Origin: Alphaproteobacteria bacterium
GTDB taxonomy: Bacteria; Pseudomonadota; Alphaproteobacteria; Micavibrionales; Micavibrionaceae
Direction: 5' to 3'
NCBI GenBank assembly: GCA_020848095.1
Contig: JADLAT010000017.1
Location: forward strand, 1 to 64,000
Length of the DNA: 64,000 bases
Below, piece after piece: positions 38,398-42,180 of this stretch. Both the position numbers and the translations under genes were made by a program. The notes under the pieces were generated by a model. That model had not been told where the DNA came from and made no database searches. It worked only from the letters and a program-made list of their open reading frames with translations. Numbering within the stretch: the first letter of the stretch is position 1; every line of letters begins with the position of its first letter.

Positions 38398-38431
38398 ACG
38401 TTGATGATTTAAGTTTTAAAGTTTGGATTTT

Positions 38432-38621
38432 CCGGATATCCGGGTTTTGCTACCCTGCATTCCCTGTCCCGGAGCCGGAAGATCCGAAAATTTCTGTGGA
38501 AGCCAATCCCTCGCCTAGAATAGGCGTACCGGCCCCACAGAAACGGCGCACCGGGCAATGCCCAAGGCTCGTTCCCCTAAAACGAGCCCTACCCCAACCG
38601 CTCGGTGCGCCCTCTTTTTTT
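38432..38621 (+). ncRNA. Structured RNA candidate / complex terminator region after flgE
   Basis: This 423-base flgE-flagellin gap holds dense RNA structure. In order: palindrome CCGGATATCCGG (38432-38443); stem TTTCTGTGG/CCACAGAAA (38491-38499 with 38535-38543) enclosing GCCTA-GAA-TAGGC (38513-38525); and nine-base-pair stem GGCGCACCG/CGGTGCGCC (38545-38553 with 38603-38611). The last encloses GGGC/GCCC and an eight-base-pair GGCTCGTT/AACGAGCC (38566-38573 with 38581-38588), making a three-way junction. It ends in CTCTTTTTTT. The final part surely works as an intrinsic terminator. The amount of upstream structure suggests a small RNA or a structured 3' UTR. It matches no RNA family I recognise. 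Confidence 0.55.
38545..38621 (+). terminator. Branched intrinsic terminator after flgE
   Basis: A nine-base-pair GC-rich closing stem (38545-38553 with 38603-38611) is followed directly by CTC and seven T. Two inner hairpins make it a three-way junction, not a simple hairpin. It separates the flgI-flgE operon from flagellin. Confidence 0.8.
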
Positions 38622-38722
38622 ATCCGCCTTCTCAAATACGTGAATACGCGGTTTTTTATAATCCTTGAGCAACGAAAAAACCGTAGAAAATGCAAAAAAA
38701 TTTGGGATAACACGATATAGCG

Positions 38723-38754: not shown

Positions 38755-38820
38755 TAAAGATGTGGCCCAGTATCGGCCTCATGCAGGAAGCATACATGAA
38801 CCCTAGGAAAGGAAACTATC

Positions 38821-40497: not shown

Positions 40498-40533
40498 TTT
40501 TAAATACAAATGGGCATTGCCCGGTACAAAAAA

Positions 40534-40566
40534 AGCCCTGGCAGAACGCCGGGGCTTTTTCTTTTT
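40534..40566 (+). terminator. Intrinsic terminator of flagellin
   Basis: AGCCCTGGC and GCCGGGGCT form a nine-base-pair stem with one mismatch, followed by TTTTTCTTTTTT. It lies 37 bases after the flagellin stop. Confidence 0.9.
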
Positions 40567-40749: not shown

Positions 40750-41145
40750 ATGGCACTTGTTATCGACCTCAAACCTCACGAAAAAATTTTAATAGGCGAG
40801 GCCGTTATCACTAACGATTCGCAGCGCACACGTCTTCACATTGCCGGTGATGCCCCCATCCTCCGGGAGAAGGATGTAATGCAGGAGGAGGACGCCGATA
40901 CGCCGTCCAAGAAGATCTATTTTCTAATTCAATGCATGTATCTGGCCAAAAAGCCGGAGGAGTACCACGCGAAATATTTTAATTTGCTGCGTGAAATTCA
41001 AAACGCCGCCCCCAGCACCACAATATTCTTTGCCCAGATCAATGAACATATCATGGGCAATGGCTATTACCGGGCGATGAAACTGGCGCGACAACTCATA
41101 GACCACGAAAAGGAATTGATCGAAAATGTCCTCAAATCCCCATAA
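40750..41145 (+). CDS. flbT: Flagellin mRNA regulator FlbT
   Basis: Post-transcriptional regulator that binds the flagellin mRNA leader and lowers its stability until the hook is complete. The 131 residues show the family signature: MALVIDLKPHEKILIGEAVI, RTRLHIAGDAPILREKDVM, and SKKIYFLIQCMYLAKKPEEY. It overlaps flaF by 20 bases. Together with FlaF it forms the alphaproteobacterial flagellin control pair. Confidence 0.95.
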   Translation: MALVIDLKPHEKILIGEAVITNDSQRTRLHIAGDAPILREKDVMQEEDADTPSKKIYFLIQCMYLAKKPEEYHAKYFNLLREIQNAAPSTTIFFAQINEHIMGNGYYRAMKLARQLIDHEKELIENVLKSP

Positions 41146-41548
41146 CCCTCATGCGCAGGCCGCAGGAGCCTATGGAAGCAACGCGCAGAAACACACCCCC
41201 GACCAAAGAGAGCTCGAGGGGCGTATCTTGCTCAAGGCGGCTAATATGATGGCCGAGCTCCAAAAGGACTGGGAAAACGTCACGCCGGTCCTGCTGGAGG
41301 AAACCCTCACCTATAATCGCCAGATATGGATGCTTTTCTATGATACCGCACTGGAAAACCCGGAAAACAACCGCCCGAACGATCTGCGCAGCAATATCGT
41401 CAATCTGGCGAATTTTATCTTCAAGCGGGAAATCAATATCAAGGCCGATCCGGAAAAAAACAAACTTGATATTCTTATCAGCATAAATCGTGAAATTGCC
41501 GCCGGGCTCATGACCAAACCCAAACTTCCGGAGCAGGTTTCCGAATAG
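41126..41548 (+). CDS. flaF: Flagellin secretion regulator FlaF
   Basis: FlaF acts as a flagellin secretion chaperone and activator, opposing FlbT. The 140 residues carry the family pattern AAGAYGSNAQKHTPDQRELEGRILLKAA and LTYNRQIWMLFYDTALENPENN. It starts inside the end of flbT, so translation is coupled. Confidence 0.93.
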   Translation: MSSNPHNPHAQAAGAYGSNAQKHTPDQRELEGRILLKAANMMAELQKDWENVTPVLLEETLTYNRQIWMLFYDTALENPENNRPNDLRSNIVNLANFIFKREINIKADPEKNKLDILISINREIAAGLMTKPKLPEQVSE

Positions 41549-41585: not shown

Positions 41586-42086
41586 TCAGGCGGTAACGCT
41601 TACGGCTGACACCGAAACCTGTCCGGATTGCGCTCCGATACTCAAGGCGGTGATGGCGGCCTGTGCCGCACCACTCCCCCCGGCTGGGGGAGACGGCAGA
41701 TCGGCATGGGCCTCCTGCACAAAGGTAATCGTAGAGAAATCGGCGCTCTTACCGCCTGTAACACTCTCAGAAACGATCCCCGGACCGTCGCTCTGCGGCA
41801 AAGACAAAGCGCTCTGCGCCTCTTGCTGCTGGCGCAAGCGCAAGGCCGTATCTGTTGGAAACTGTGCCACTACATCGCCCGTATCAGAATCGCGCAACTG
41901 CAGGACAGCGGCATCCAAAAGCGGGTCAACAGCGATATAAGGGCTGATATAGGGGGCCACCGGACCGCGCGCAACGCTCTCCACCGCCAAAGCATCGGCG
42001 GCGAAAGAACGCGGAGCGGACGTCTGGTCCGCAGCTATGCGGATTAACGGCGCATTCGATATGACTGAATTTACAGCTTCTATCAT
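41586..42086 (-). CDS. FlaG-like flagellar protein
   Basis: The 166-residue protein has disordered, Ala/Ser/Pro-rich ends around a core AVLQLRDSDTGDVVAQFPTDTALRLRQQQ, which matches the FlaG pattern (strand, D-TG-V, Q-P, helix). FlaG proteins influence filament length in other bacteria. It lies opposite flaF and fliF, with its own strong sigma-70 promoter and palindromic operator, so it is controlled separately from the sigma-54 genes. Confidence 0.6.
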   Translation of the reverse strand: MIEAVNSVISNAPLIRIAADQTSAPRSFAADALAVESVARGPVAPYISPYIAVDPLLDAAVLQLRDSDTGDVVAQFPTDTALRLRQQQEAQSALSLPQSDGPGIVSESVTGGKSADFSTITFVQEAHADLPSPPAGGSGAAQAAITALSIGAQSGQVSVSAVSVTA

Positions 42087-42134
42087 TTTTTTCCCTAAAA
42101 GTTTGACTTTTCCATATACAGAAAAAATTCAAAC

Positions 42135-42180
42135 GATACTATCCTAGTATCATATTAACGCAGCAAAACGCAAAAGTCAA
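42135..42180 (-). promoter_or_regulatory. Near-consensus sigma-70 promoter with overlapping palindrome
   Basis: In the minus direction TTGACT (42180-42175), a 17-base spacer and TAATAT (42157-42152) form an almost perfect housekeeping promoter. The predicted start falls in a perfect seven-base palindrome, GATACTA-TCC-TAGTATC (42135-42151), placed like a repressor operator. It drives the FlaG-like gene. Confidence 0.75.

Follow-up and report, generated by a model that had tools for sequence, protein, structure and literature searches.

The DNA between the hook gene flgE and the flagellin gene of this alphaproteobacterium raises the question of whether the structure it can form is more than a terminator and, if so, what such an RNA would do between these two genes. 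The question reaches beyond the locus itself, as the FlbT work of 2000 left two questions that still stand for Alphaproteobacteria, namely the recognition of flagellin mRNA by FlbT and the coupling of hook completion to synthesis of the filament.

Structure of the element

A new structured RNA of Micavibrio-like predatory bacteria lies directly 3' of flgE in the window (the whole 64,000-nucleotide stretch of DNA analyzed). Its three hairpins and the neighboring flagellar features are listed in Table 1. The original prediction had described, starting at position 38432, a palindrome, a nine-base-pair stem with an inner hairpin and a three-way junction closed by another stem, followed by a T-run. 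All of these elements are present, and the nine-base-pair stem with its inner hairpin and the terminal run of seven T are found as described. The other parts required correction: the start at 38432 cuts into stem 1, and the palindrome TCCGGATATCCGGA (38431-38444), although it can be read in the sequence, proved in the comparative data to be only the 5' strand of the larger stem 1 hairpin. The three-way junction is correct only in part: the closing helix of stem 3 (38545-38556/38600-38611, 11 of 12 positions paired) encloses an inner hairpin, but the interior of this long terminator-like stem varies, with one extra hairpin here and none or several in relatives. The G+C-rich stem (38545-38611) and the sequence TTTTTTT that follows it constitute an intrinsic terminator, which a simple terminator scanner missed because its loop limit was 8.

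Table 1. Features of the flagellar locus and of the RNA located in it.
Feature	Position	Strand	Support or match
flgE, flagellar hook protein, 598 aa	36601..38397	+	Pfam Flg_bbr_C, Flg_bb_rod, FlgE_D2
Whole structured RNA, three hairpins	38424..38613	+	Covariance models R1 and R2, fold z −6.43, covariation
Stem 1 with inner hairpin TGCTACCCTGCA (38448-38459) and C-rich strand TTCCCTGTCC (38460-38469)	about 38422..38488	+	
Stem 2, nine-bp outer stem 38491-38499/38535-38543 (9/9 paired)	38491..38543	+	
AGNAN pentaloop hairpin CGCCT-AGAAT-AGGCG, apex of stem 2 (RNA loop AGAAU)	38512..38526	+	
Stem 3, terminator closing stem, inner hairpin 38566-38588	38545..38611	+	
Seven-T run, end of intrinsic terminator	38615..38621	+	Sequence
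Flagellin leader: GGCC-CAGTATC-GGCC (38764-38778), ATGC-AGGAA-GCAT (38781-38793), Shine-Dalgarno mini-hairpin CCT-AGGAA-AGG (38802-38812)	38764..38812	+	
Flagellin gene, 558 aa	38821..40497	+	Pfam Flagellin_N 3.6e-11
AGNAN hairpin (AGAAC loop, 13 bp) just 3' of flagellin, terminator-like	40530..40560	+	
flbT	40750..41145	+	Pfam FlbT 3.1e-43
flaF, flagellin secretion chaperone	41126..41548	+	Pfam FlaF 2.4e-25
FlaG-like gene	41586..42086	−	Weak FlaG match, E 0.21
AGNAN hairpin (AGGAT loop, 8 bp), 46 nt upstream of FlaG-like gene	42133..42153	−	

The minimum free energy of the RNA was −79.3 kcal/mol, compared with −54.2 ± 3.9 kcal/mol for 200 dinucleotide shuffles (z −6.43), and no shuffle was as good. 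A recurring three-hairpin element was seen in the DNA 3' of flgE in relatives, in which stem 1 reads GCUACCC-GGCAU-YCCUAACCCC, stem 2 has an AGAA or AGGA apex and stem 3 reads GGCGCAUCGGGCAAUGCCC...AACCCAACCGCUUCGGUGCGCC and is followed by T's. Within the family, conservation of unpaired bases is highest in stem 1. A pseudoknot between the C-rich loop of stem 1 and GGGCAAUGCCC of stem 3 was discarded, since relatives without GGGCAAUGCCC keep the stem 1 motif.

The proposal that the RNA is structured beyond the needs of a plain terminator was to stand or fall with the conservation of its stems in relatives, a check named beforehand, and the stems are kept with strong covariation. Two-sided (compensatory) changes were found in 36 of 39 base pairs in an alignment of 33 distinct rows. 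Standard pairs filled 90.8% of its cells, against 74.7% with the 3' letters shuffled and at most 52% after sliding; it must be noted that the alignment was fitted to the model and includes two antisense matches (L061/L062), so the figures lean towards structure, although the margin is large. A good fold is also obtained for the complementary strand (z −4.57). Given that G-U exceeded A-C in the pairs of the refined alignment by 121:38, the plus strand is favored, which also fits the T-run and the orientation of flgE.

In addition, the element resembles no known RNA family in these searches. Rfam 15 gave no match at gathering level across the whole window, and when seven relatives were searched with E values up to 5 no family matched the RNA. 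ARAGORN revealed neither tRNA nor tmRNA in the window. The Rfam search that had been recommended thus returned nothing like the element, and the view that it is none of the housekeeping RNAs holds at gathering level in the window and for weak matches on the RNA of the seven relatives. The element also contributes an RNA family that had not been listed, from a group of predatory bacteria in which RNA biology has received little attention.

Distribution and genomic position

The own genome (about 2.0 Mb in 23 contigs) carries a single copy of the RNA, by which a mobile repeat was ruled out; a phage origin was likewise rejected, as the exact stem 1 core was absent from viral contigs. Plain DNA searches in relatives returned short matches only. 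A first covariance model, built from eight copies, was run at E≤1 on 104 genomes of the same family and detected the RNA in 34. A second one of 29 copies, applied to 142 genomes of the order, gave matches at E≤0.1 in 36, of which 35 were at E<0.001; all of these belong to one family, which is taken to be the Micavibrio group. When 385 genomes across the class were searched with the 29-copy model, a single weak and doubtful match (E 0.014) was obtained outside this family. The RNA is present in one copy per genome and on the same strand as flgE. A model of stem 1 by itself also gave one match per genome, and in all cases where positions were comparable this match coincided with the element.

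In 29 of 30 loci checked flgE extends up to the element on the same strand, the exception being L073, without an upstream flgE match; the gap between the flgE stop codon and the element ranged from 5 to 121 nt (median 19) in 34 flgE loci. In most loci the next gene is that of flagellin, and flbT and flaF often come after it. Such a short distance would hardly accommodate a promoter in most loci, so the element is interpreted as the terminator and 3' UTR of the flgE message. It does not look like a separate gene driven by a promoter of its own; the best description is that of a structured 3' UTR and terminator belonging to the flgE transcript, which could also be processed to yield a stable RNA.

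The element is missing from part of the family, given that in five loci (L116, L130, L135, L137, and L155) flagellin starts about 50 nt past the flgE stop codon without the RNA. In L026 (genome G018), the first 300 nt past the flgE stop codon contain, instead of the RNA, a long inverted repeat that is nearly perfect (GTCATCCCGGCGAAAGCCGGGATCCAG) and probably belongs to a dispersed palindromic type.

A hairpin loop class shared with flagellin leaders

One loop class recurs among the hairpins downstream of flgE and those in the flagellin leaders. The most frequent loop 4-mer in flgE 3' regions was AGAA (41 of 77, 7.0 expected from dinucleotide shuffles) and that in flagellin leaders was AGGA (32 of 63, 3.6 expected), both being cases of the AGNAN pentaloop. 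This was the commonest pentaloop class after flgE (45 of 191, with 12 in the next class) as well as in the leaders (46 of 112, with 5 in the next). The result held with 71 diverged representatives, among which AGNAN accounted for 40 of 169 pentaloops in flgE 3' regions and 39 of 101 in leaders. For stems of at least 5 bp, its density was 1.5 per kb in flgE 3' regions and 3.0 per kb in flagellin leaders, compared with 0.042 per kb on the opposite strand. As the AGNAN class was named after the Micavibrio-type data had been seen, the leaders of the remainder of the class Alphaproteobacteria are the sole independent check; in the flagellin leaders of other alphaproteobacterial families AGNAN was again the top class (12 of 90 versus 3 of 218 in coding controls). 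Several of these hairpins overlap the Shine-Dalgarno sequence (UCC-AGAAA-GGA) and others are placed further upstream. Across Alphaproteobacteria the flagellin Shine-Dalgarno sequence often forms a UCC-AGAA(N)-GGA mini-hairpin (L180, L184, L186, L174, L182, L183, L187, and L194).

Within the RNA there is usually one AGNAN loop, more often AGAAN than AGGAN. Its usual place is the top of stem 2 (relative position 0.35-0.56), but where a relative has a short stem 3, the AGNAN loop may instead be that of the terminator. In the window the class also occurs in the flagellin leader (38781-38793). The two further AGNAN hairpins of the locus, 3' of flagellin and upstream of the FlaG-like gene, suggest a small late-flagellar RNA regulon.

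These data bear on the simplest alternative, namely that the structured 3' UTR only guards the flgE mRNA from 3' decay and terminates it, AGNAN being a favored stable loop with no partner in trans. Stem 3 with its T-run is indeed a terminator, the RNA is always at the 3' end of flgE, and the binding of FlbT discussed below is putative. However, a plain stabilizer needs neither the conserved unpaired motif of stem 1 nor a loop class shared with the leaders. Nor is AGNAN a general terminator loop in this genome: a motif scan of 837 kb of the own genome (about 42% of it) found nine non-coding sites with stems of at least 5 bp, three of them in this 3.7-kb locus, counting the one at 38512, although the script had assigned it to the antisense strand of a spurious ORF (38450-38713). 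We regard this explanation as unlikely.

Another possibility is that a small RNA processed from the 3' UTR pairs with G-rich sites in other mRNAs by means of the C-rich stem 1 strands CUACCC and CCCUAACCC. Stable hairpins and a 3' terminator are typical of small RNAs and both are present, and the most conserved unpaired bases are those of stem 1. Against it, the own flagellin leader was no better partner for the RNA than swapped leaders (mean rank 11.1 of 23, with 12 expected). Antisense pairing with that leader was thus rejected, and a base-pairing small RNA in general appears quite improbable.

FlbT as the putative binder

In Alphaproteobacteria FlbT regulates flagellin post-transcriptionally, as a repressor that binds flagellin leaders. 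It is the protein known to act at these leaders (PMC3930126, PMC4347634), and a flagellin paralog, FljJ, acts together with it (PMC7591256). Its working mechanism is still considered unresolved in a review. In this locus, flbT is found 2 kb downstream of the RNA, beside flagellin. CsrA (PF02599) was absent from the own genome, which is 99.7% complete, and the positive controls matched; a CsrA sponge was therefore rejected. The simplest reading is that the AGNAN hairpins are FlbT sites and the 3' UTR a decoy. That they are instead bound by some other protein, such as a ribonuclease or another RNA-binding protein that sets the stability of late flagellar mRNAs, is still less probable than base pairing. 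In its favor, the loop class common to both regions implies a common recognizer without naming it; against it, FlbT is the protein known at flagellin leaders and is encoded at the locus.

We favor, with a probability of about 0.4, a reading in which the flgE 3' UTR displays AGNAN sites like those of flagellin leaders, FlbT binds both and the hook mRNA titrates FlbT. The conserved 3' UTR and terminator of flgE would act as a three-hairpin RNA showing one or more AGNAN hairpins, and one RNA-binding protein, most likely FlbT, would bind AGNAN there and in the flagellin leaders. FlbT would delay flagellin synthesis until hook assembly is complete, and the RNA would be its possible decoy. As long as there is plenty of hook mRNA, the 3' UTR, either as part of the message or as a stable fragment released from it, may compete with flagellin mRNA for the regulator, and the release of flagellin translation would thereby be coupled to the expression of the hook gene.

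Several observations speak against the decoy. The most conserved bases, in stem 1, are left unexplained by titration of FlbT. An AGNAN hairpin was found in under half (16 of 43) of the flgE 3' regions without the RNA, and in some genomes flagellin follows flgE at about 50 nt with no RNA between them. Moreover, when a strict rule is applied, a perfect AGNAN hairpin is missing from about 10 of the 34 loci with the RNA, and the resemblance of FlbT to CsrA is weak.

With regard to this resemblance, the N-terminus of FlbT is similar to CsrA by eye (IG-x-x-V ... AP ... REK). The alignment of the FlbT N-terminus with CsrA in hhalign was not significant, and a column-shuffle comparison gave a z of 3.1 (2 of 200), which is suggestive only. 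In the predicted FlbT model (pLDDT 90) a helical bundle forms the C-terminal part, and the N-terminal part, which is CsrA-like in sequence by eye, has three strands. A Foldseek search with this model gave nothing significant. In VIA-align, FliS was listed for the C-terminal helices with a Z of 6.9, within the range for any helical bundle, and CsrA was not among the matches listed, in a structure comparison that barely covers the N-terminal part. As the profile comparison was not significant, FlbT was not accepted as a proven CsrA relative and the similarity is kept as a lead only. In a small sample, the two CsrA-bearing alphaproteobacterial genomes (G169 and G251) were not FlbT-positive and the FlbT-bearing genomes were without CsrA.

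A wider proposal would make AGNAN hairpins the FlbT recognition element across Alphaproteobacteria, in a CsrA-like post-transcriptional regulon, with the 3' UTR of the hook mRNA of Micavibrio relatives as a sponge that turns this mRNA into the signal releasing flagellin translation; we consider it rather doubtful. In any case, an RNA that ends the hook gene and shares a hairpin class with flagellin leaders supplies, in AGNAN, a specific candidate site that can be mutated, and it may link the hook gene to flagellin.

Comparison with known systems

The flg-Rhizobiales RNA motif (Rfam; PMC2864571) is, judging by its name and a mention in text, also a structured RNA tied to flagellar genes in Alphaproteobacteria, but no Rfam family matches the RNA in the window or in the relatives. 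The flagellar small RNAs of Campylobacter jejuni, as they are described in PMC11187230, likewise act post-transcriptionally in the flagellar hierarchy, whereas the RNA reported here is the 3' UTR of an alphaproteobacterial flgE. Another parallel is that of RNAs titrating CsrA/RsmA (CsrB/RsmZ and the flaA mRNA of C. jejuni with CsrA-FliW; PMC4894983): here too an RNA presents hairpin loops with an AGGA-type core and would titrate a repressor of flagellin translation. The element differs in that there is no CsrA in this genome, its loops are AGNAN (mostly AGAAN) instead of ANGGA, it forms the 3' UTR of flgE and FlbT is its putative binder. Finally, in the control of flagellin by FlbT in Caulobacter the known site is the flagellin 5' leader, and no site in a hook-gene 3' UTR is described in that literature (PMC3930126, PMC7591256); the regulator family and the flagellin target are nevertheless the same, and the flagellin leaders of the class show the AGNAN hairpins that the flgE 3' UTR also carries.
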